Of a stretch of DNA of 43,702 nucleotides, positions 3,978-36,338 are shown in pieces. This stretch comes from a virus, in IMG/VR virus record IMGVR_UViG_3300009008_000080, positions 1-43,702 of that record, one strand, 5' to 3'. Position 1 is the first letter of the stretch; every line of letters begins with the position of its first letter. A program made the position numbers and the translations under genes. The notes under the pieces are model-generated. The model saw only the letters and a program-made list of their open reading frames with translations, was not told the DNA's origin and did not search any database.

Positions 3978-4937
3978 ATGTCAATGATTGAAAAAATGGA
4001 TGAATCCACAAGAGTTTTCTTTGAAAGGGAAATTGAGCATGTCAAGTCTCAGACCTATGATGTTCAATACCCAACACTAAAAGCACTTCAGTTGCTACCG
4101 ATGAACGATTCGGCTGGCCCTGGTGCTGATAGCATTACTTATGAGCAATTCGACAAAGTCGGTATGGCAAAAATCATCGCTGACTATGCCGATGACCTAC
4201 CTCGTGTAGACATCAAGGGTAAGAAATTCACGACCCCTGTTGAGTCTTTAGGCGACGCTTATGGGTATTCTCTTCAAGAGGTACGTTCTGCTGCTCTAGC
4301 AGGTCGTGCGCTTCAGACAATGAGAGCTGATTCTGCTCGTAGAGCAATGGCTCAAGAAGAGCACCGCATTTTGATGTTCGGTGATTCCACAACTGGTCTT
4401 CCAGGGTTCTTGAGTAACGCAAACGTTCCTTCTGTTGCTGTCCCTGCCGACGGTGCTGGTGGAGCGACAACTTTTGCTTCTAAGAGTGCAGACCAAATTT
4501 TGCGTGATATGAATAGCCTTGTAAACGGCATTGTAGACCTTACAAACGGTGTAGAAATGCCAAACACTTTGCTTCTTCCTATCTCACAGCACAGCTTGAT
4601 TGCCTCAACACCAAGAAGTGCAACGAGTGACACAACTATTTTGCAATACTTCTTGAATAACAACCCATTTATCACTGCTGTTGAGTGGGTTCATGACTTG
4701 AAGGCGCCTGCTGCTGGTTGGTTGGCACAACACGGTATCACATTGCCGATTGATACTGGTGACGTGATGGTAGCTTATGACCGCAACCCAAATAAGCTTA
4801 CCGCAGAAGTTCCTCAACCTTTTGAGCAGCTTCCTATTCAGGAACGCGGCTTAGAGTTCTTGGTGAACTGTCACCAACGTGTCGGTGGATGTATCATTTA
4901 CTATCCATTGAGTGTTTCAATTGCTGTAGGAATCTAA
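3978..4937 (+). CDS. Major capsid protein (DUF2184 family)
   Basis: A 319-residue protein resembling the DUF2184/encapsulin-like major capsid family with the HK97 fold. It has a long N-terminal helical arm with ESTRVFFEREIEHV, an expanded-loop region around residues 50-100, and a QEEHRILMFGDSTTGLPGF segment near residue 125 that is characteristic of the family. The RBS is AAAGGAG. The downstream terminator at 4939-4972 ends the capsid block, as expected for a very highly expressed gene. Confidence 0.9.
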   Translation: MSMIEKMDESTRVFFEREIEHVKSQTYDVQYPTLKALQLLPMNDSAGPGADSITYEQFDKVGMAKIIADYADDLPRVDIKGKKFTTPVESLGDAYGYSLQEVRSAALAGRALQTMRADSARRAMAQEEHRILMFGDSTTGLPGFLSNANVPSVAVPADGAGGATTFASKSADQILRDMNSLVNGIVDLTNGVEMPNTLLLPISQHSLIASTPRSATSDTTILQYFLNNNPFITAVEWVHDLKAPAAGWLAQHGITLPIDTGDVMVAYDRNPNKLTAEVPQPFEQLPIQERGLEFLVNCHQRVGGCIIYYPLSVSIAVGI

Positions 4938-6620: not shown

Positions 6621-7111
6621 TGGCGACCTTTCAAGACCTAAGAGATACATTATACGCAGTTATCTCGACTGAAACTGGCCTCACTACTATCTTCGCTCAA
6701 CAAAATGCACCACGTCCAGACCTACCATATTGCGTTATAAACATTCTCTCGAATGTGAAGATAGGCTTGAGAGATGAACAGCGCGAAATTAACGACCTGA
6801 ATGAAGCAACTTATTGTGGAACGAGAGAAGCAACGGTTGAAGTGCAATTTTTTGGTGATGATGCGTTTCAAAATGCCCAATTGCTACAGGCAGCATTTAG
6901 TAAGCAAGGGGTTTTAGAAACTTTTCGCGACGCAGACATGGCTATTGTTGACGACGGTGATGTCACTGACATTACCACCTCACTTGATAGTCAATTTGAA
7001 GTCCGAGCAATTTTAGACCCAATTATTGTACGTTATTTAATTGAAACCACAGTAGACGTTGATACTATTGAAACTGTGGAAATTAACGAAGAAGAATATA
7101 GTCTTGTATAA
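6620..7111 (+). CDS. Tail terminator / neck protein (gp12-like LIC_12616 family)
   Basis: A 163-residue protein with a GTG start that overlaps the previous stop. It has the layout of tail terminator proteins: an N-terminal helix (QDLRDTLYAVISTE), PDLPYCVINILS, then a conserved GTREATVEVQFFGDDAFQNAQ segment before a mixed C-terminal part. Terminators cap the tail tube and sheath and join them to the neck. It lies just before the sheath gene, 11 bases apart. Confidence 0.78.
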   Translation: MATFQDLRDTLYAVISTETGLTTIFAQQNAPRPDLPYCVINILSNVKIGLRDEQREINDLNEATYCGTREATVEVQFFGDDAFQNAQLLQAAFSKQGVLETFRDADMAIVDDGDVTDITTSLDSQFEVRAILDPIIVRYLIETTVDVDTIETVEINEEEYSLV

Positions 7112-7122
7112 GGGGGCTTAAT

Positions 7123-8466
7123 ATGGCTGCACCATTATCAGAAATTGTAGATGTTTCTATAACACGCCAAGCGCAAGGAATTAGTCGAGCAGGTTTCGGG
7201 GTTATGCTCATTTTGGGCACTGAGGCCGAGTTTGCTGGTCGAGTTCGTTCTTACAGCTCTATTGAAGGGGTTGCAGAGGACTTTGAAACAACGGATGCCG
7301 AGTATAAGGCTGCACAGGCAGCTTTTTCTCAAACACCTAAGCCGAGAACCATTAAAATTGGCCGACGTGAGACACCTGTTGCTCAAGAGCAAACTCTGAC
7401 CTTTGACGTAGACTTTGTTGCTGGCAACACTATCACGCTTGACGTTGATGGTGTAGAAGTAAGCGTTCCATTCAACGCAGACCACGCGACAACACTTAGT
7501 GACTTAGCTGCTGCAATTCAAGCTGAGGCTGGTGTTGTAACGGCTGTCGTGACTGGTGCTCGTGAAATTACCATTACAGCGCAAACGGCTGGTGTCCCCG
7601 TTACTTTAGACGACGTTCTAGTGGCTGGTGGCGCTCAGCAAGCAGTTGGCGTTGTTGCGGTGACTGTAGAGAACGTTGGGGTTCAAGAAGACCTTCTTGC
7701 TGTCATTGAAGAGGATAAAGACTGGTACGCTCTTGTTTTAACCGACCGCACTCAAGCGGTTGTAGAGCTAGCGGCTGCTTTCATCGAAACTCAGCGACGT
7801 ATTTTCGTAACTGCCTCTGACGATGCAGATGTTTACGACGATGCTGTGACTACTGACGTTGCTAGCGTCTTGAGCGATGCGAACTACTCTCGAACTGCTG
7901 TCGTTTATGACGACGATGACCAAGACTTCATTGACGCTGCTTGGTTAGGTCGCATGCTTCCAACTGACCCAGGTAGTGCAACTTGGAAGTTTAAGACTCT
8001 TGCAGGCATTTCCTCTCACTCGCTCACTACGAACGAGAGAAACAATGCTCTTGCTAAGAACGCAAACCTTTACACTGAATTTGCCGACGCTGACATGATG
8101 GAAGAGGGCGTTATGGCAAACGGTGAGTTCATTGACCTTATTCGTGGCATTGACTGGCTTCAAGCTCGTTTGGAAGAGAACATTTTCCTTATGCTTAAGA
8201 CTGAAGACAAAGTGCCTTACACAAACGGTGGTATCGCTGCTGTTGAGGCTCAAATTAGAGCTGTACTTGAGAACGCAGTGCGTCAAGGCGTAATTACTCG
8301 CGACCCTGATAAGTTTGAAGGTCAACCTTATAGTGTTGTGACACCTGATGTGTCTGCAATTGACCCTGTAGATAGAGCGAACCGCCTGCTTCCAGATGTT
8401 ACATTTGAGGCAACACCCGCAGGGGCTATCCATAAAGCCGTAATTACTGGAGCGGTTAGCATTTAA
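7123..8466 (+). CDS. Contractile tail sheath protein (DUF3383)
   Basis: A 447-residue protein matching the DUF3383 sheath family. It has an N-terminal SEIVDVSITRQAQGISRAGFG segment in family style, a variable inserted beta domain (about residues 85-185, rich in TIT/TLT strands), and a conserved C-terminal part. The latter carries WLGRMLPTDPGSATWKFK around residue 275 and RGIDWLQARLEENIF near 345. The sheath contracts to drive the tube through the envelope. A strong GGGGG site precedes the ATG, and the tube gene follows at 11 bases. Confidence 0.9.
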   Translation: MAAPLSEIVDVSITRQAQGISRAGFGVMLILGTEAEFAGRVRSYSSIEGVAEDFETTDAEYKAAQAAFSQTPKPRTIKIGRRETPVAQEQTLTFDVDFVAGNTITLDVDGVEVSVPFNADHATTLSDLAAAIQAEAGVVTAVVTGAREITITAQTAGVPVTLDDVLVAGGAQQAVGVVAVTVENVGVQEDLLAVIEEDKDWYALVLTDRTQAVVELAAAFIETQRRIFVTASDDADVYDDAVTTDVASVLSDANYSRTAVVYDDDDQDFIDAAWLGRMLPTDPGSATWKFKTLAGISSHSLTTNERNNALAKNANLYTEFADADMMEEGVMANGEFIDLIRGIDWLQARLEENIFLMLKTEDKVPYTNGGIAAVEAQIRAVLENAVRQGVITRDPDKFEGQPYSVVTPDVSAIDPVDRANRLLPDVTFEATPAGAIHKAVITGAVSI

Positions 8467-9535: not shown

Positions 9536-10968
9536 TGGCAACTGTTCGTGAACTGGTAACAAAGATAGGTTTTGACCTTGACGCCACAGGGATGGACAAG
9601 GCCGAAAACAGAGTTAAAAAGTTCGGCCAGTCGGTAAAGAGCATTGGTAAAAAGTTCACAGCATTTGCCACACTTCCTATTCTTGGCATTGGTGCAGCAT
9701 TCATAAAGACTGCAAGCGATGCTGAGGAAACTACAGCAAAATTTGGAACAGTTTTCGCTTCTATAAGTGAAGAGTCTGAGCAGGTGGCAAGAAACCTTGG
9801 TCGAGACTTTGGGCTTAGTAGAGCAGCTTCAAAGAAACTTCTCGGTGATACTGGTGACTTGTTGACTGGTTTTGGTTTTACTGCTGAGTCTGCTTTAGGG
9901 TTGTCTGAGGAAGTAAACAAGCTTGCCGTTGACTTGGCTTCTTTCACCAACTTCTCTGGTGGTGCTGAGGGTGCTTCGGCAGCTCTTACAAAAGCTTTAC
10001 TTGGTGAGCGAGAGTCTATCAAAAGCCTCGGCATCTCTATTCTTGAAGAGGATGTTAAGAAGCAGGTCGCTATCAATAGGGCTAAAGGGCTTACTTTTGA
10101 GACAGAGAGACAAGCTAAGGCATTTGCGACCCTAGAATTAGCACAGCAACAAAGTAAGAATGCTATAGGCGACTTTGCGAGGACGCAAGATAGTTTTGCA
10201 AACCAGATGCGTATTTTACGCAGTGCTATTGCTGACTTTTCTGATACTGTAGGTCAAAGACTTCTTATTGTTGTCACCCCTATGATAGAAAAGTTCACTG
10301 CCTTTGTAAGAAAGCTTGAGGAAACGAACCCAGTTCTTCTTGACCTTGGAATTATCATTGCAGGAATAGTTGCTATCCTTGGCCCGCTTCTTGTTCTTAT
10401 AGGGTTCATAACTACTGCATTTGCTGCCGTAAGCGCACCTGTTTTAGCTGTAGTTGCTGCGATTGGCGCTCTTATTGCGGTTGGCGCTGTTGTCATTGCT
10501 AAATGGACTCAAGTAAAAGAATTTTTGATAAAGCTTTGGGAATCCCCTTTAGGAAAGTTCTTTAAGTTTTTCCATCCAGTTGGAAGGTTGATATGGCTTG
10601 CTGAAAAAATAATGGAGCATTGGAAGCCTATTAAGGAATTTTTTGCGGATATTTGGGATAGCATTGCACCAACGATACAAAAATTATCTGGAATAGCTGG
10701 AAAAGCCTTCCGTTTTGTTACTGGAGGCGCATTTGATGTCTTTGGAGGGGATGGCGCAGCTACTGCGACACAAGTGAGCCCATTGCCTCTTTCTGGTGGT
10801 TCTGGTTCAAGAACTGCAAACGTGCAGAACCAAACTTCTGTGAATATGAATATTCAGTCAAATGCAAACCCTGAAGAAATAAAACAAAAAGTAAAAGAAG
10901 GCGTTGAAGAAGCAAATAGTTCTCAATTAAGACAAACGAAACTAGCTCTTGCTGGAGGTGCTTTCTAA
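9535..10968 (+). CDS. Tail tape measure protein
   Basis: A 477-residue protein, short for this role, implying a tail of roughly 70 nm by the usual 0.15 nm per residue rule. The N-terminus (VRELVTKIGFDLDATGMDKA) and the long alanine-rich helices are typical. Two strongly hydrophobic segments lie at about residues 270-325 (IIIAGIVAILGPLLVLIGF and AVVAAIGALIAVGAVVIA), as in many tape measures that enter the host membrane during ejection. It starts inside the stop codon of the frameshifted chaperone. Confidence 0.88.
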   Translation: MATVRELVTKIGFDLDATGMDKAENRVKKFGQSVKSIGKKFTAFATLPILGIGAAFIKTASDAEETTAKFGTVFASISEESEQVARNLGRDFGLSRAASKKLLGDTGDLLTGFGFTAESALGLSEEVNKLAVDLASFTNFSGGAEGASAALTKALLGERESIKSLGISILEEDVKKQVAINRAKGLTFETERQAKAFATLELAQQQSKNAIGDFARTQDSFANQMRILRSAIADFSDTVGQRLLIVVTPMIEKFTAFVRKLEETNPVLLDLGIIIAGIVAILGPLLVLIGFITTAFAAVSAPVLAVVAAIGALIAVGAVVIAKWTQVKEFLIKLWESPLGKFFKFFHPVGRLIWLAEKIMEHWKPIKEFFADIWDSIAPTIQKLSGIAGKAFRFVTGGAFDVFGGDGAATATQVSPLPLSGGSGSRTANVQNQTSVNMNIQSNANPEEIKQKVKEGVEEANSSQLRQTKLALAGGAF

Positions 10969-14100: not shown

Positions 14101-15576
14101 ATGGCTGGTTTAACGGCTGATGGTTTTCAAATAAAGCGTCTTGCAGAGATAAAAACAGAGCTAGAAGAAGCTCATAGAGCTGCTTTTGGAAACGCTTTCA
14201 ATATCGACCCTTCTGAACCTGCTGGGCAGCTTATTGGTATCTATGCAGAGAGAGAAGCGCTTCTGTGGGAGCTTATGCAGGCTCTCTATAATACATTGAA
14301 CCCAGACGCAGCCACAGGGGTAAACCTTGATATTATCGCAGCTCTTACGGGCGCTGTTAGGCTAGAGGCTACTTTTTCTCAGGCTGAAGTGGTGGCAAGA
14401 GGTGTTCAGGGCACGGTCATTCCTGCGGGTTCTCAAGTGAGTGTAGAGGGTGACCCAGAAGCAGTTTTTGAGTCTCAGGCTGAGGCTATTATCGGCGACG
14501 GGGTTGACGAGGTTCAGGACATTTCATTTTCCGACGTTCCTGTAGCTGGTGAATTTACCCTTATTTTCGATGGTGAGGAAACTGCCGCTATCCAGTTCAA
14601 TGATAACGCTGCCGCAGTAGAGGCCGCTTTAGAGGCTTTGAACGGAATTGACGATGTTGATGTCGTTGGCGACTTTGCAGGCGGTTTTACAGTTGCCTTT
14701 GTGAATGCAAGCGGTGACCAAGACCAGCCGCTAATTCTTGAGGGGAATACAAACACATTAGAAGACGGTGGTGCAGCGCCTATCACAATTGATATTGTGG
14801 AAAGCGTAGCTGGTGACCTTCCTAGTGTGACCTTTACGGTATTTGCAGTTGAAGCAGGTCGTTTAGTGGCAAGAGCTGGGACACTAACCGTTATTGAAAC
14901 GCCAGTCCCTGGCTGGTCTGAAGTCACAAACCCTGCTGATGCCGTTGAGGGCAGAGACCTTGAGACTGACGCAGAATTTAGACTAAGACGCTTTCTTACA
15001 TTAGCCGAGCCTGGTTGTGGTACTGTCGACGCTATCAGAGCTGAAATACTTAAAATTGATGACGTAAGGTCGGCTCGTGTCTTTCAAAATATCGAATTTG
15101 TTGTTGATGCTGCTGGAAGGCCGCCAAAATCAGTTGAGGCTGTGGTTTTAGGTGGTTCTGACGAGGATGTTGCGAACGCTCTTTTTGTGACCGTATCTGC
15201 TGGAATTGAGCAGTTTGGTGATGAGACTTTTGACGTTATCGACTCACAAGGGTTCACTCAAACAATGAGATGGAACAGGCCAGATGAAATAGACATATGG
15301 CTTGAGGTAGACCTTACCACTAATGACGACTTCCCTGTCGACGGTGATGTGAGCGTTGAGGAAAAAATACTTGAATTTGTTGATACTGAATTTCTTATCG
15401 GAGACGACGTTGTGACCTCTAGGCTTTATTGCCCTATTCATGAGGTAGATGGCATTGACGACATTGTTATACGTATTGGACTTGCCCCAGGGCCTGTTGG
15501 TGACGCCAATATCCCAATAGGTGAAAGAGAGATTGCGGTTTTTGATAGTGCCAGAACCACAATAAATATACTTTAG
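14101..15576 (+). CDS. Baseplate J-like protein
   Basis: A 491-residue baseplate wedge protein. The N-terminal part (DPSEPAGQLIGIYAEREALLW, then TGVNLDIIAALTGAVR) and the EGRDLETDAEFRLRRF segment near residue 285 are typical of the J family. Residues about 140-250 look like an inserted beta domain (FTLIFDGEETAAIQFNDNA, AALEALNGIDDV), a module seen repeatedly in phage structural proteins. J proteins form the baseplate ring with gp25 and connect to tail protein I and fibres. Confidence 0.88.
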   Translation: MAGLTADGFQIKRLAEIKTELEEAHRAAFGNAFNIDPSEPAGQLIGIYAEREALLWELMQALYNTLNPDAATGVNLDIIAALTGAVRLEATFSQAEVVARGVQGTVIPAGSQVSVEGDPEAVFESQAEAIIGDGVDEVQDISFSDVPVAGEFTLIFDGEETAAIQFNDNAAAVEAALEALNGIDDVDVVGDFAGGFTVAFVNASGDQDQPLILEGNTNTLEDGGAAPITIDIVESVAGDLPSVTFTVFAVEAGRLVARAGTLTVIETPVPGWSEVTNPADAVEGRDLETDAEFRLRRFLTLAEPGCGTVDAIRAEILKIDDVRSARVFQNIEFVVDAAGRPPKSVEAVVLGGSDEDVANALFVTVSAGIEQFGDETFDVIDSQGFTQTMRWNRPDEIDIWLEVDLTTNDDFPVDGDVSVEEKILEFVDTEFLIGDDVVTSRLYCPIHEVDGIDDIVIRIGLAPGPVGDANIPIGEREIAVFDSARTTINIL

Positions 15577-15601
15577 TAATTAAAGAGGCACTTATTTTAT
15601 T

Positions 15602-16195
15602 ATGGCTGACTTAAGTAAAATTGATACGCATGTTGCTGATGCCCTAGACAGGCTTTTACACCAATATAAAGACAAGCCACGGCTTGAGTCTTGGGTATCT
15701 CTTTATGTGACTCTTTTGCAGGAAGTTGAAGACACTGGCGACTCACTCTGTATGTTGCTTGATATTGTGACTCAAGATGGTGACCGACTCGACCTTATAG
15801 GCGGAATTGTAGGTGTTTCAAGAGCTGGGAAGAATGATGCAGAGTATCGTATAGCTATTTATGCTAAAATAGGACAAAACACGTCGAATGCAACTATAGA
15901 GGCTGTCATAGGTGTGATGAAGCTTTTATCTCAAGCTGATGGTGTTTTTATTATCGCAAATTATCCAGCCACAATTTCAATACAATTGAATGTTGACCCT
16001 GCTGGTCTTGATGCTGATGGGTTACTGCTTGTTGCGCAAAAAATAGTCGCTGGGGGCGTAAAAGTTGGTGATATTTCCGCCTTTGCTGGTGAAGAAGCTT
16101 TTGCTTTTGAAGGGCCCACACCTGGTCAAGGCTTTGGTGATGAAGGTGACCCATTAGTAGGCGGAAGGTTTGCAGGAATTCTTATTGGAACTTAG
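15602..16195 (+). CDS. Baseplate / tail protein (DUF2612, tail protein I-like)
   Basis: A 197-residue protein of DUF2612 style, the functional analogue of P2 tail protein I. Features are HQYKDKPRLESWVSLYVTLL, DGDRLDLIGGIVGVSRAGK and a RIAIYAKIGQNTSNATIEAV helix. It would attach the fibre to the baseplate. The last 40 residues (AGEEAFAFEGPTPGQGFGDE) resemble a fibre-interaction extension. It follows J and precedes the first fibre gene by 10 bases. Confidence 0.78.
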   Translation: MADLSKIDTHVADALDRLLHQYKDKPRLESWVSLYVTLLQEVEDTGDSLCMLLDIVTQDGDRLDLIGGIVGVSRAGKNDAEYRIAIYAKIGQNTSNATIEAVIGVMKLLSQADGVFIIANYPATISIQLNVDPAGLDADGLLLVAQKIVAGGVKVGDISAFAGEEAFAFEGPTPGQGFGDEGDPLVGGRFAGILIGT

Positions 16196-17699: not shown

Positions 17700-18005
17700 A
17701 TGGCTAAACAAATTTCTCAATCATTTACTTTAGAAATGAAGTCTTTGGCAGAAAAAATGAAAGACTGTGATTTAAACAATTTTATAAGTAAATTATCAAA
17801 AGGTGAAATGGAAAGTATGAATGAAATAAGCGCTGATACACTTATTGATATTTTAGAGCTTTGTAAAAATCTTGTGCATAATGCAGGCTATTCTCATTTT
17901 GGTAATAATTTTGCTAATTCTGTTGTTTTACTAACTGGGGTTATCAGTCAAATTCGTCGAGGAAGAAAAAAGGCTCTTGAACAGGATAAAGAAAATAAAG
18001 AATAA
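17700..18005 (+). CDS. Hypothetical protein in fibre region
   Basis: A 101-residue protein of unknown function. It is helical and mildly charged, with DTLIDILELCKNLVHNAGY in the middle and a basic C-terminal tail (RRGRKKALEQDKENKE). There is no signal peptide or membrane segment. RBS is AAGGAGGGG. Position directly after a tail fibre suggests a fibre assembly factor, but no sequence signal supports this. Confidence 0.65.
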   Translation: MAKQISQSFTLEMKSLAEKMKDCDLNNFISKLSKGEMESMNEISADTLIDILELCKNLVHNAGYSHFGNNFANSVVLLTGVISQIRRGRKKALEQDKENKE

Positions 18006-18067
18006 AGTTAATTATTTTAGTGAAAGAGTTTCTAAATCTCTTATATTTTAGGAAAAAGGAGTATCAA

Positions 18068-18424
18068 ATGCGAACAATAGCAAAATTTTCTATTATCTTT
18101 TGCTTACTTACAATGCCAGTGCTTGCATTTGGTCAAGCGTTCAGGCCGCCTACTAGCGTCATTGTAAATATACCTTTAGCGGGAAATGATGATAGAACAC
18201 AAGCGCCAGAGCTTCAAGTTTCTGCGTGCAGTGTACAGGCTCACCACAATAACGTGGGGGCTATTTACAATGGTGGTGCTGATGTCACAAATGCTGGTGG
18301 TGTGAACAGAGGTATCAAAATTGACGCTGATGAAGGTCATGGGCCTATTCTTATGGGGAATAGAAACAATATTTTCCTTGCTGCTGATGTTGCTGGCGAT
18401 AAGGCCATTGTCTACTGTAATTAG
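18068..18424 (+). CDS. Secreted small protein with virion-type domain
   Basis: A 118-residue protein. The start at 18068 is chosen because AAAGGAG lies just upstream and because the product then begins with a clear Sec signal peptide (MRTIAKF, a FSIIFCLLTMPVLAF core, cleavage near AFG-QA). The mature part contains GAIYNGGADVTNAGGV followed by an ILMGNRNNIFLAADV segment. This pattern is seen in small beta-sandwich domains on phage virions. Two cysteines, near residues 60 and 117, could pair in the periplasm. A secreted protein inside a fibre block is unusual; function unknown. Confidence 0.75.
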   Translation: MRTIAKFSIIFCLLTMPVLAFGQAFRPPTSVIVNIPLAGNDDRTQAPELQVSACSVQAHHNNVGAIYNGGADVTNAGGVNRGIKIDADEGHGPILMGNRNNIFLAADVAGDKAIVYCN

Positions 18425-18432
18425 GAGAAGCT

Positions 18433-19308
18433 ATGCGCTTTTTTAAATATTTCGTTTCATTGCTTCTTATTTCAAATATTGCGTTTGCCAATTCTGGTTT
18501 ATTGCCAATTACTGCTGGTGAAGGCGGTGGGCCAGGGCCAGGTGGTGGCATTGAGTATGACGCTGCCGTACAAGATGGCGATGCTTTTATTTCACTAAGA
18601 ATAAATGAAAATACTTTAGGTAAGGCTACTGGTATATCAGAGTCTGTTCTTATCTCGCTTCACACTATCAACTCATGTTCAAACGACGTGGGAACAGTGG
18701 AAATTGGAACTGATGTTGATAACGTGACTGTGAATTGGACGTATAACCGAAACGGCGATGACCCTGAATCGCAAGAGGTGTCAATGAACCCAGGCGACCT
18801 GCCAGGTGGTGACCCTGATGTAAGGGCGGTCGGTGATAGACAGGCTATTTATGCAGGTCTTGGGCTTGATGAGGTCAACACTACATTCACCATTGATGCT
18901 GTAGGTGATGACGAGACTTGGGGTGCTGCTGCTGGTAACCCTACAAGCTGTAACACGTCGGTGAACTTCTTGCCTTGTGTTTATTTTGGCATTTCTCAGG
19001 CTGACGACATAGACACAGGTGCTGAAATTATGGCTAACTTTGCAGCCTCTTGTGAGCTAGATGCGAATAGAGGTCATACATATAACTTTGATGCTTCTCA
19101 AGGTGGCGGGAATAACTATCTTTATGTTGCATATCCTCAAGCTTATGGCGTTCCAGCTCAAACGCTTTTCAATGGGTTTATCTTTAATGACTACCAGACG
19201 ACACAGAATGAGAACTTAATAAACGCTCAAGGATATGCTCAAAACTATATTATCCTGCGCACCAATAACCAATTTAACGGTGATGACATTACATGGGTGA
19301 TACAATGA
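18433..19308 (+). CDS. Secreted protein with receptor-binding-like C-terminal domain
   Basis: A 291-residue protein. The first 19 residues form a Sec signal peptide (basic MRFFK, hydrophobic core VSLLLISNIAF, cleavage near AFA-NS), then a Gly/Pro-rich linker. The C-terminal domain (about 185-291) has the pattern YFG, NNYLYVAYPQAYGVP, FNGFIFNDY, YAQNYIILRTNNQFNGDD. This is found at the ends of many phage tail proteins. Four cysteines are compatible with periplasmic disulfides. The next gene repeats this domain without signal or cysteine. It could be an exported structural protein or a receptor-masking factor (inference). Confidence 0.75.
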   Translation: MRFFKYFVSLLLISNIAFANSGLLPITAGEGGGPGPGGGIEYDAAVQDGDAFISLRINENTLGKATGISESVLISLHTINSCSNDVGTVEIGTDVDNVTVNWTYNRNGDDPESQEVSMNPGDLPGGDPDVRAVGDRQAIYAGLGLDEVNTTFTIDAVGDDETWGAAAGNPTSCNTSVNFLPCVYFGISQADDIDTGAEIMANFAASCELDANRGHTYNFDASQGGGNNYLYVAYPQAYGVPAQTLFNGFIFNDYQTTQNENLINAQGYAQNYIILRTNNQFNGDDITWVIQ

Positions 19309-19640
19309 TAATTTTCCAAGGTTTTGCAAATTTCGATATTTCTAATGCTGAGAAGCTTATGGAACACGTTCCAGCTTCAAACCAAGAAAGTCCGTTTAAG
19401 AAATTCGAGTTTAATGCAAGCACAAATGGTGAGGAAAACTTTCTCTATGTTGCCTACCCAAAGAGTGCTGGGAAGCCTAGTAAAACTCAATTTGGTGGAT
19501 TTGGTGAGGACTTTACAGCTTATGAAGTGAAGGAAGTGGAAATTTCAGTTACGCCAGAAAAAAAGGAAACTTTTCTCATGTTTAAGAGCCAAAACAAATA
19601 TAATGGCAATAACTTAACATGGGAATTTTTTAAGGGGTAA
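19305..19640 (+). CDS. Small protein, cytoplasmic paralogue of preceding C-terminal domain
   Basis: A 111-residue protein starting at the ATGA overlap with the previous stop; the ATG at 19293 would only add four residues. Its sequence NFLYVAYPKSAGKPSKTQFG ... GGFGEDF ... MFKSQNKYNGNNLTWEF lines up with the C-terminal domain of the preceding protein (NYLYVAYPQAYGVP ... RTNNQFNGDDITW). It has no signal peptide and no cysteine. It is probably a virion tip domain or fibre subunit born by duplication. Confidence 0.75.
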   Translation: MIIFQGFANFDISNAEKLMEHVPASNQESPFKKFEFNASTNGEENFLYVAYPKSAGKPSKTQFGGFGEDFTAYEVKEVEISVTPEKKETFLMFKSQNKYNGNNLTWEFFKG

Positions 19641-19643
19641 GAC

Positions 19644-20963
19644 ATGCCAAATGAACGGGGTACAGTTATCGGTGCGGCGATAGTCCCCACGAACCCTTTA
19701 GACCAGTATGCAACGCATGATGCTTATTGGGGTCGTGGTGGTACCAGAACTGTTGCCGACTTAGCAGAAAGAAATGCAATACCAGCACAACGTCTTGAAG
19801 AAGGCATGCTTGTCTATGTTCAGGCCGATGGTGCAATTGGTGCAATGTATCAATTGCAGCCAGGCTTTGGCGTTCCTACCGTTGATGGCGACTGGGAATT
19901 GTTCCACGGTGGCGGTGCAGGTGTTGGCGTTCGTAATGAGTTTTGGGTTGATACTGCTGGTGATGATGGAAACGATGGAAGCCAAGCGAACCCATTCCTT
20001 ACATGGCAAAAAGCTGCTGACGAAGCGACTGCCGCACTTCCAACAATGGGAATGGCGACAATTCATATCAATAATGGACTTTACGACCTAGCTACAGGGG
20101 CAAATTTCACAGGAAACGCCGCAGGTGTTATAAAAATCACTACCGACGACCCTTCTATTCCTGCCGCAGTTCTTCTTAGAGGAATCGCAAACAACCTTGG
20201 GTACGGAATTACAGTAAATAACCCGAACCTAGTACTTGATATTGAAGGGTTTAACACTCAACGTTCCGCCTTTGGGCTTAATGTATTGGCTGGAAACGTA
20301 CTTATTGGGTATGTTGGTTTTAATGACCATGCTTTTGATGTTGTTGCTAATGGATACTTCTCAAAGGCAAAATTTATTCAAAACACCAATGGTGATGCAG
20401 CTCTTGTTGGTGCAAATGCAAATGGCTCGTATGGTTGTTATGCAATTGCAGGTGGTATGATAGAAGTTGACCAAGATATTTCTGTAAGCCTTGCCGATGA
20501 GTGTTTTAGAAATGAAGGTGGACGAATACTTTGCCGTCAAACAAGAACCCTTACTTTGCTTCCAATTGCACTACCTAATGCCTGCGCATTTAGAACAACT
20601 TCAGGTGGTTTGAGCATCATTCGTTCAACCATTAGCCCAGACGGAACAGTTGCACAGCCTTTATTGGCTAATGCGAATATCGCATTTGATGTGGATAATG
20701 GAACGCAGATAATGGACTTTTCCTCAAACTATAATTTGGACAACTTTACGCTTGGCATTAGAATTATCAACACTGGAAAGGTCATTGATGATGGTAATAC
20801 GTGGCTTTACAACAATGTTACTCAGCATGTTCTGTATGACCAGTCTGCTCAATGGAAGAGTAGAAGGCACTTTGATACTGATGACATTGCTTATCAGGGA
20901 AGTAATTCATTCCAAAGCGGAATACACTATGAAATGCGTAATTTATTAAGGACTATGAGGTAG
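19644..20963 (+). CDS. Tail fibre/spike with right-handed beta-helix
   Basis: A 439-residue protein. The N-terminal 85 residues (GRGGTRTVADLAERNAIP, then EGMLVYVQADGAIGAMYQL) are a common virion attachment domain. It continues with EFWVDTAGDDGNDGSQANPF, the typical opening of pectate-lyase-like beta-helices, and NPFLTWQKAADEA. Many short V/I-rich turns follow. It probably binds or degrades host surface polysaccharide. No catalytic residues can be assigned by eye. It starts 3 bases after the previous stop. Confidence 0.78.
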   Translation: MPNERGTVIGAAIVPTNPLDQYATHDAYWGRGGTRTVADLAERNAIPAQRLEEGMLVYVQADGAIGAMYQLQPGFGVPTVDGDWELFHGGGAGVGVRNEFWVDTAGDDGNDGSQANPFLTWQKAADEATAALPTMGMATIHINNGLYDLATGANFTGNAAGVIKITTDDPSIPAAVLLRGIANNLGYGITVNNPNLVLDIEGFNTQRSAFGLNVLAGNVLIGYVGFNDHAFDVVANGYFSKAKFIQNTNGDAALVGANANGSYGCYAIAGGMIEVDQDISVSLADECFRNEGGRILCRQTRTLTLLPIALPNACAFRTTSGGLSIIRSTISPDGTVAQPLLANANIAFDVDNGTQIMDFSSNYNLDNFTLGIRIINTGKVIDDGNTWLYNNVTQHVLYDQSAQWKSRRHFDTDDIAYQGSNSFQSGIHYEMRNLLRTMR

Positions 20964-26887: not shown

Positions 26888-27079
26888 ATGGGTTTATTCA
26901 AGTCAAAGAAGTTTTTGGCAGCAATTGGTGGTGTTATCGCGGCAGTGCTCTTTTATTTTCTGAGCATTCCAGAACAAACCACTATGCAGGTAGTAGGTAT
27001 CATTATTTCGTACATTGTCGGCCAAGGCATTGCGGATAAGGGTAAAGAGGCTGAGAAGATTAAGAAGGGTCAAGAGTGA
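26888..27079 (+). CDS. Holin, two transmembrane segments
   Basis: A 63-residue protein with a short basic N-terminus (MGLFKSKKF) and two hydrophobic helices (about 10-27, AAIGGVIAAVLFYFL, and 34-48, MQVVGIIISYIVGQG). The C-terminal tail is highly charged (KGKEAEKIKKGQE). Size and topology are those of class II holins. RBS is GAGGAGGG, among the best of the cassette. It would permeabilise the inner membrane to release the endolysin. Confidence 0.78.
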   Translation: MGLFKSKKFLAAIGGVIAAVLFYFLSIPEQTTMQVVGIIISYIVGQGIADKGKEAEKIKKGQE

Positions 27080-35575: not shown

Positions 35576-35848
35576 ATGAATTTGACTGAAGAACAAAAAA
35601 AAGAACTCGAAGAGCTGAAACAAGACCCCTTCTATAAGTTCTCGCTTAAGCAAACAGACCATGTATTTAGCCAGCTCATGGCCTATTACAACGCCTCAAA
35701 GAAAAAGGTAAAGATACCTGCAAAGGACTTCATACACCATTACTTTATGGGTCTTTTGCTTATTTGCGATGAGGCAGGATATTTGCAGTATTATAACGGC
35801 ATATCTAAAAAGGTTAGGGAAGAGAATGGTCAAACAAGTCAAGGTTGA
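35576..35848 (+). CDS. Hypothetical protein
   Basis: A 90-residue helical protein. It starts with a charged helix (LTEEQKKELEELKQDPFYKF), then a KIPAKDFIHHYFMGLLLICD segment that may be a helix-turn-helix or a short hydrophobic helix. It overlaps the ParB-methyltransferase relic by 23 bases. RBS before ATG is weak (AAAGG). Function unknown. Confidence 0.62.
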   Translation: MNLTEEQKKELEELKQDPFYKFSLKQTDHVFSQLMAYYNASKKKVKIPAKDFIHHYFMGLLLICDEAGYLQYYNGISKKVREENGQTSQG

Positions 35849-36338
35849 AAATATTACACCTTACGAAAAGAATGCAAAGAAGCACCCAAAGAAGCAAATT
35901 GAGCAAATAGCTCGCTCAATTGAAGCCTTTGGTTTTAACCAGCCTATTGTTGTTGATAAAGAAAATGTCATTGTAGTAGGTCACGGGCGCTTTGAGGCTG
36001 CAAAGAAGCTTGGAATGAAAGAAGTGCCTTGTTTACAGGTGGACTTAAACCAAGACAAAGTGAAGGCATATAGGCTTGCGGATAACAAGCTCAATGAAAG
36101 TGACTGGGAACATGGAACGCAAAAGCCGATTGAATGTATGCTTAGACCTATAAAGAACAACACTTCACCTGGTCACGCAGTTTATGACCCGTTCGGCGGA
36201 AGCGGTACGACTCTTATAGCTTGCGAGAAAAGCGGAAGACAATGCTTTATGATGGAAATAGACCCGTGCTACATTGATGCCATAATTGAAAGGTGGCAGG
36301 AATATACAAACGAAAAGGCAGTTAAGGTCGATGGCTAA
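35826..36338 (+). CDS. ParB domain joined to a truncated DNA methyltransferase
   Basis: A 170-residue protein. Residues about 3-90 are a ParB/Srx-like domain (QIEQIARSIEAFGFNQPIVV, VVGHGRFEAAKKLGM, RLADNKLNESDW). Residues about 95-165 are the C-terminal end of an N4/N6 methyltransferase, with TQKPIECMLRPIKN, the SAM-binding YDPFGGSGTTLIA and EIDPCYIDAIIERW. Full-length relatives are over 400 residues; the middle with the catalytic (D/N)PPY motif is missing at the junction near residue 95. It cannot methylate on its own as written. Confidence 0.8.
   Translation: MVKQVKVENITPYEKNAKKHPKKQIEQIARSIEAFGFNQPIVVDKENVIVVGHGRFEAAKKLGMKEVPCLQVDLNQDKVKAYRLADNKLNESDWEHGTQKPIECMLRPIKNNTSPGHAVYDPFGGSGTTLIACEKSGRQCFMMEIDPCYIDAIIERWQEYTNEKAVKVDG

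Follow-up and report, generated by a model that had tools for sequence, protein, structure and literature searches.

The tails of tailed phages are, in the established view, built in the cytoplasm. Two neighbouring genes of a 43,702-base virus record from IMG/VR (the window, i.e. the whole stretch of DNA that was analysed) are flanked by a small AT-rich gene (17700-18005) and by fibre genes, and their products P0001 and P0002 start with predicted signal peptides. Which role could proteins sent through the Sec pathway play in the fibre cassette of such a phage?

Two genes with predicted signal peptides

Matches of window genes to portal, head morphogenesis, major head, tail sheath, tape measure and baseplate families indicate a contractile-tailed phage. 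An endolysin match together with a spanin pair at 27015 and 27217, read by eye and with one lipoprotein member, points to a host having an outer membrane. Elsewhere in the window, a 189-aa ORF (35769-36338) combines ParB-like matches at its N-terminus with DNA methyltransferase matches at its C-terminus.

The genes of P0001 (118 aa, 18068-18424) and P0002 (291 aa, 18433-19308) lie on the plus strand, and the coordinates given for them by the original prediction are correct. Its claim of clear signal peptides on both products is borne out as well, the two candidates having the tripartite Sec type-I form and strong ribosome-binding sites. P0001 starts with MRTIAKFSIIFCLLTMPVLAFGQA, preceded by AAAAGGAG, and its putative signal peptide (18068-18136) would be cleaved after VLA (residue 20) or GQA (residue 23). 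P0002 starts with MRFFKYFVSLLLISNIAFA, followed by NSG and preceded by TTAGGAG; cleavage of its signal peptide (18433-18489) would occur after AFA at residue 19. These cleavage sites were placed by eye, and the signal peptides were assigned by a crude rule requiring a positive n-region, an uncharged hydrophobic core and an A-X-A-like site. Five of the 108 window starts preceded by a ribosome-binding site pass this rule, P0001 and P0002 among them. Of 624 ORFs, taken from the window together with 39 loci that include near-duplicates, 25 passed a slightly different rule, and at this background of about 4% two neighbouring passes are unlikely by chance. The lipobox, a motif [LVI][ASTVI][GAS]C at the cleavage site of the signal peptide, is absent from both signal peptides on reading. 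As a prediction from sequence, export of P0001 and P0002 by Sec is well supported.

A recent insertion as origin of the two genes was rejected, because their GC content and codon usage fit the phage. A search for a promoter dedicated to them yielded just a weak match, at 18020-18047; promoter-like sites in the region number 26, compared with 14.8 (sd 4.4) in shuffled sequences. The 101-aa gene at 17700-18005, directly 5′ of P0001, is an outlier of the genome with a GC content of 0.29 and a GC3 of 0.17, and has a weak match to a PHROG of unknown function (E 0.0019).

The original prediction also took the mature parts of both proteins for virion domains. This holds for P0002, where homology, HMM and fold search agree; in P0001, which has no family match and a weak model, no such domain was detected. 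No homologue of P0001 was found in PHROGs, Pfam, phage records or IMG/VR, and a search of 25 related viral records, run without a positive control, gave no match. Its sole PDB match, to ribosomal L31 (E 0.05-0.2), was taken as chance. By eye only, P0001 resembles a small phage family with a GGSNVT motif (A7: P0004, L043 and L047); hhalign gave a probability of 9% over 16 columns and phmmer a result no better than chance. Structure prediction, proposed with the original prediction as a check of both proteins, led to matches with viral models for P0002, but for P0001 only to a single-sequence AlphaFold2 model with a pLDDT of 41.

The adaptor domain of P0002 and its usual place

Residues 79-291 of P0002 (18667-19305) are confirmed as a virion-type domain, which usually ends a tail protein encoded 5′ of a fibre gene. 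In the alignment the domain consists of one Ig-like half and one half with a YAYP/YYG signature. By tblastn, residues 85-287 share 30% identity (E 8e-10) with gp28 of Tunturiibacter phage Tunturi_5 (PP885688.1, annotated as tail fiber protein), through which the domain is linked to Bacteroides phages and faecal phage scaffolds. Both halves of P0002 have significant profile similarity to the fibre-adaptor C-terminal domain family defined here, where the HMM search of the own genome used an alignment (A6) that includes P0002 and P0003 themselves. The AlphaFold2 model has a mean pLDDT of 65, reaching 78-92 in the last 72 residues and staying below 50 in the first 58. At E values not above 0.001 it matched 24 viral models, most of them uncharacterized and four named as tail, tail fibre or baseplate; the named entries are from phages, Caudovirales or, once, a 'virus sp.'. 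Among solved structures no match was obtained by sequence, and the model gave common Ig-like matches only (Z up to 6.8), including a tail protein of SU10 (Z 6.6) that was left out as evidence. Searches of IMG/VR with P0002 alone or with alignment A3, and of plasmid records, returned no relative. Of 398 genomes from the phylum to which the Sphingomonas genome G001 belongs, G001 was the only one with a match to the domain. A BFVD match, the annotated structural protein gp58 of Cellulophaga phage phi12:1, was considered as a virion protein with a signal peptide and rejected, as it has none, and none was found among gp48-gp61 of this phage.

The usual place of the domain was examined in 29 IMG/VR loci, several of them near-duplicates, which were fetched with the N-terminus of the window fibre. 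A domain ORF lies upstream of the fibre in 23 of these, at a distance of 3-42 nt in 22 and of 1067 nt in L030; L014-L018 and L035 have no upstream domain ORF. In L030 the gene right after the domain protein (at 4934) is patatin-like by eye, with the fibre farther downstream. Loci found by the domain alone carry the fibre N-terminus on the next gene in Tunturi_5, SJC03/DAC16 and L009 (by eye), and lack it there in L006 and L007. Two pairs of adaptor domain and fibre occur in L025 (2362-3387 with 3388, and 6875-7612 with 7609). In L003, two minus-strand ORFs just 3′ of the fibre genes (14383-15890) look by eye like an IS200/IS605 transposase pair.

Some relatives start with virion modules of different kinds, such as DUF2793 in L012 and collagen-like fibre families in L021 and L036. 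In L031 (5300-5983) a head-tail joining domain (Phage_H_T_join_3) precedes the adaptor domain in a single fused protein, and a fibre comes next, which hints at fibres attached to the neck. The same arrangement was seen in L026, L028 and L029, the Phage_H_T_join_3 match having been tested in L031. We infer that the following fibre docks on the adaptor domain.

In front of the domain P0002 has no recognised virion anchor, and a signal peptide and a Gly-rich linker (GEGGGPGPGGG, 18517-18549, read from the translation) stand there instead; residues 20-101 gave no PHROG or Pfam match below E 0.19. Its relative in L011 is likewise without a recognised anchor. No signal peptide at a plausible start was found among the relatives in this first sample, where one start alone exceeds the cut-off, at codon 313 within the L040 frame, and the closer relatives (Tunturi_5, L011-L013, L019) are all without one. 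The gp28 protein of Tunturi_5 is encoded directly 5′ of a fibre that shares the docking N-terminus of the window fibre; unlike P0002, it has no signal peptide and a different, cytoplasmic N-terminus.

In the window itself, P0003 separates P0002 from the fibre that has the docking N-terminus. P0003 (111 aa, 19305-19640, plus strand) is a free-standing second half of the domain and adjoins the fibre with a gap of 3 nt. The original prediction had called it a cytoplasmic homologue; homology to the second half of P0002 was found (hhalign 98.8%, with a profile, A6, that itself contains P0003), but none to P0001. The fibre protein (19644-20963, plus strand), whose reading frame opens only at 19641, has the N-terminal docking motif LDQYATHDAYWGRGGTRTV...RNAIP. 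Neither P0003 nor this fibre carries a signal peptide.

The predicted cysteine counts were correct, with four in P0002 (residues 82, 173, 182 and 207), two in the mature part of P0001 and none in P0003; a third cysteine of P0001, C12, lies within the core of the signal peptide. In an alignment of 35 sequences, with some near-identical rows and one to three gaps in each of these columns, none of the 34 other rows has a cysteine at any of the four positions of P0002. Phe occupies the column of C82 in 18 rows, and Lys or Arg that of C182 in 27. The three cysteines of Tunturi_5 gp28 are at none of these positions. Cysteines unique to P0002 would fit two disulfides gained after export. Such a gain is not general, because the signal-peptide-bearing domain protein of L055, described below, has only one cysteine.

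Paired signal peptides in other viral contigs

The second half of the domain, used as query in a first scan, returned eight loci, three of them already known. Four of the five new loci have a domain protein without signal peptide, and the fifth, L055, has one with signal peptide, Gly-rich stretch and adaptor domain, followed by a fibre which also has a signal peptide. A wider scan seeded with L055, itself signal-peptide-bearing, and four others led to 43 loci. Domain proteins with a predicted signal peptide were found on six contigs (L062, which is the contig of L055, L063, L066, L099, L101 and L102), and in all six the next gene carries one too. Most relatives of P0002 are without signal peptide, and the six that appear to bear one are distant.

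The 74 loci fall into 56 clusters, each judged by its first member; for the 54 that have a next gene, an automatic count gave 5 clusters with signal peptides on both genes, 4 with the domain protein only, 0 with the next gene only and 45 with neither (Fisher p 4e-5). After correction by hand the numbers for the 54 clusters are 6, 0, 0 and 48 (p 4e-8); neither p-value takes account of relatedness. The correction concerned L101, where the next ORF had been mispicked and the true next gene at 10324 carries a signal peptide, and L064, L086 and L040, where signal-peptide-like starts have no ribosome-binding site and lie within long frames or close to their beginning. The signal peptide of L066, with a TTG start and no ribosome-binding site found, was sought after the next gene had shown one, and the starts in L099, L101 and L102 have no ribosome-binding site by the rule used. 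Three groups were excluded from the count: the six fibre loci without the domain; L053-L057, which share their contigs with loci from the wider scan; and the second domain ORFs of L008 and L025.

The N-termini of the exported fibres were compared with those of cytoplasmic relatives, such as MANNIGTLVTAQIRP in L090 and MAIELIDKIAPKN in L064. With the cleavage sites placed by eye, the predicted mature fibres continue with NNIGTLVTDPIRP after SLGQ in L102, NNQGGTLVTAPIRP after SAQ in L099, DGTVLVIDKLAPKN after WGA in L062, IVIIDDLAPKN after VSQ in L063 and TVTVIDVLGPKN after ARA in L066. Thus, after predicted cleavage, five of the six exported fibres match the Met-start N-terminus of cytoplasmic relatives, in an alignment made without L101. 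A signal peptide placed before the conserved fibre N-terminus means that cleavage would restore the docking end, which speaks for continued docking of the exported fibre and, with it, for formation of the pair outside the cytoplasm. Among the genes fetched for L063, only the fibre pair passes the signal-peptide rule. More signal-peptide-like N-termini occur near the exported pairs of L101 (12000-12494) and L066 (5244-7904). Judged by eye, the signal peptides of L099, L101 and L102 resemble those of Bacteroidota.

In the window the signal-peptide pair consists of P0001 and P0002, the latter being the domain protein. As P0003 and the fibre at 19644 have no signal peptide, the window stands outside the full paired class.

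The contig of L055 and L062 (IMGVR_UViG_3300009506_000082, here G424) resembles the window in its domain protein with signal peptide and Gly-rich stretch and in the small signal-peptide-bearing protein that precedes it, as P0001 precedes P0002, although these two small proteins do not align with each other. Unlike the window, it has predicted signal peptides also on the fibre and on an SU10-type adaptor. Twelve of about 47 listed ORFs of G424 pass the signal-peptide score, including a tail-fibre match, possible lysis genes and the SU10_adaptor protein; the portal and major head matches fail it. The SU10_adaptor protein (G424:25007-25732, equal to L060:5007-5729) reaches Pfam E 3e-19, over the family cut-off, with residues 31-225 behind a Sec-like N-terminus, MRKLFLSLVFSLTLFTGFAKA. 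In a search of 19 viral records only G424 was over the cut-off, so that the signal peptide on a core adaptor is one case. The fibres of G424 are large and beta-helix-like, with NosD/Beta_helix matches.

Proposed assembly outside the cytoplasm and competing explanations

From the signal peptides, the domain homology, the usual position 5′ of a fibre, the cysteines found in P0002 only and the recurring pairs, we infer that export takes place, that disulfides form and that virions are joined at a certain stage, in the following way. P0002 would be a fibre adaptor in which the usual virion-side N-terminus has been replaced by the signal peptide and the Gly-rich linker. The periplasm would be the site where this protein folds, probably with two disulfides, and where it is kept in store late in infection. 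It would then enter the fibre complex outside the cytoplasm, where virions built in the cytoplasm would most likely be met when the inner membrane fails at lysis. For P0001, export alone is proposed. We assign a probability of roughly 0.45 to the reading that parts of the fibre cassette are exported by Sec, mature in the periplasm and join virions, probably at lysis. It is supported by the phage-like codon usage of P0001 and P0002. The combination of a domain protein and a fibre that both bear signal peptides, the latter with its docking N-terminus, argues for extracytoplasmic assembly more than for a pure decoy, without deciding between them. Against this reading stand the window fibre and P0003 without signal peptides, unlike the six paired cases, the lack of detectable relatives of P0001, the crudeness of the signal-peptide rule and the single contig with an exported core adaptor. 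More doubtful is a wider form of it, by which several distant lineages of tailed phages would export a fibre cassette by Sec, and in at least one case a head-tail adaptor, with fibres or tails maturing in the periplasm and being joined to cytoplasm-built heads at lysis; the window would then be a partial or reduced member whose exports are the adaptor and its small partner. Should Sec indeed handle fibre adaptors, fibres and even a head-tail adaptor, some phages would have to finish assembly in the periplasm or at lysis. Fibres could then be disulfide-bonded, and the parts that bind receptors would be kept away from heads up to release; the making of fibres could also be linked with superinfection exclusion.

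The forms with signal peptides have no recognised virion anchor, so possibly they do not join virions at all. In the main rival reading, exported P0001 and P0002 might target the receptor of the host, either out of the periplasm or, once lysis has occurred, on debris, thereby preventing superinfection as well as futile adsorption of progeny. We consider this unlikely. Predicted export, the lost virion-tying anchor of P0002 and a window fibre without signal peptide agree with it, and passages of PMC9586334 offer a precedent in Llp of phage T5, a phage protein acting in the periplasm that prevents adsorption to infected cells and debris. However, Llp is, by description, an outer-membrane lipoprotein, and P0001 and P0002 have no lipobox; the domain resembles a fibre dock more than a receptor-binding tip, and the whole fibre appears to be co-exported in six other contigs, as does the SU10-type adaptor in G424. 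The same missing anchor, and the large beta-helix-like form of exported fibres as in G424, would also suit an adhesin made from fibre parts, free or displayed on the surface and released by the infected cell or at lysis, which serves the phage or lysogen with no joining to virions and no receptor block. Such an adhesin seems improbable to us, given that the exported fibres keep their docking N-terminus and that the cassettes sit among tail genes and have phage-like codon usage. Least credible, and in our view very improbable, is that there is no export at all and that the hydrophobic N-termini are virion parts, e.g. plugs or anchors, which merely resemble signal peptides. Hydrophobic N-termini of virion proteins are conceivable, and the signal peptides discussed here are predicted from sequence. 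Yet the full tripartite form with plausible cleavage sites, the adjacent pairs in seven sequences, the homologous fibre N-terminus starting at the predicted cleavage site and the cysteines peculiar to P0002 speak against it.

Filamentous phages, which are membrane-assembled and tailless, differ in both points from the phage of the window, as compared by description. Use of host secretion by their virion proteins is described in PMC4823517. The original prediction knew of no described system of the form seen in the window, and none emerged from the open-licence papers searched here; their titles, abstract openings and the passages covered gave no report of tailed-phage tail proteins that carry a Sec signal peptide. 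Passages across PMC9586334, PMC3556154, PMC2628397, PMC11437467, PMC5723332 and PMC8951688 do mention exported endolysins and exclusion lipoproteins, as well as two rumen Bacteroides phages with signal peptides that are unassigned. Phage endolysins with signal peptides (passages of PMC8951688 and PMC2628397) are like P0001 and P0002 in their export by Sec, which for the latter two is predicted, but are cell-wall enzymes and not tail or fibre proteins.
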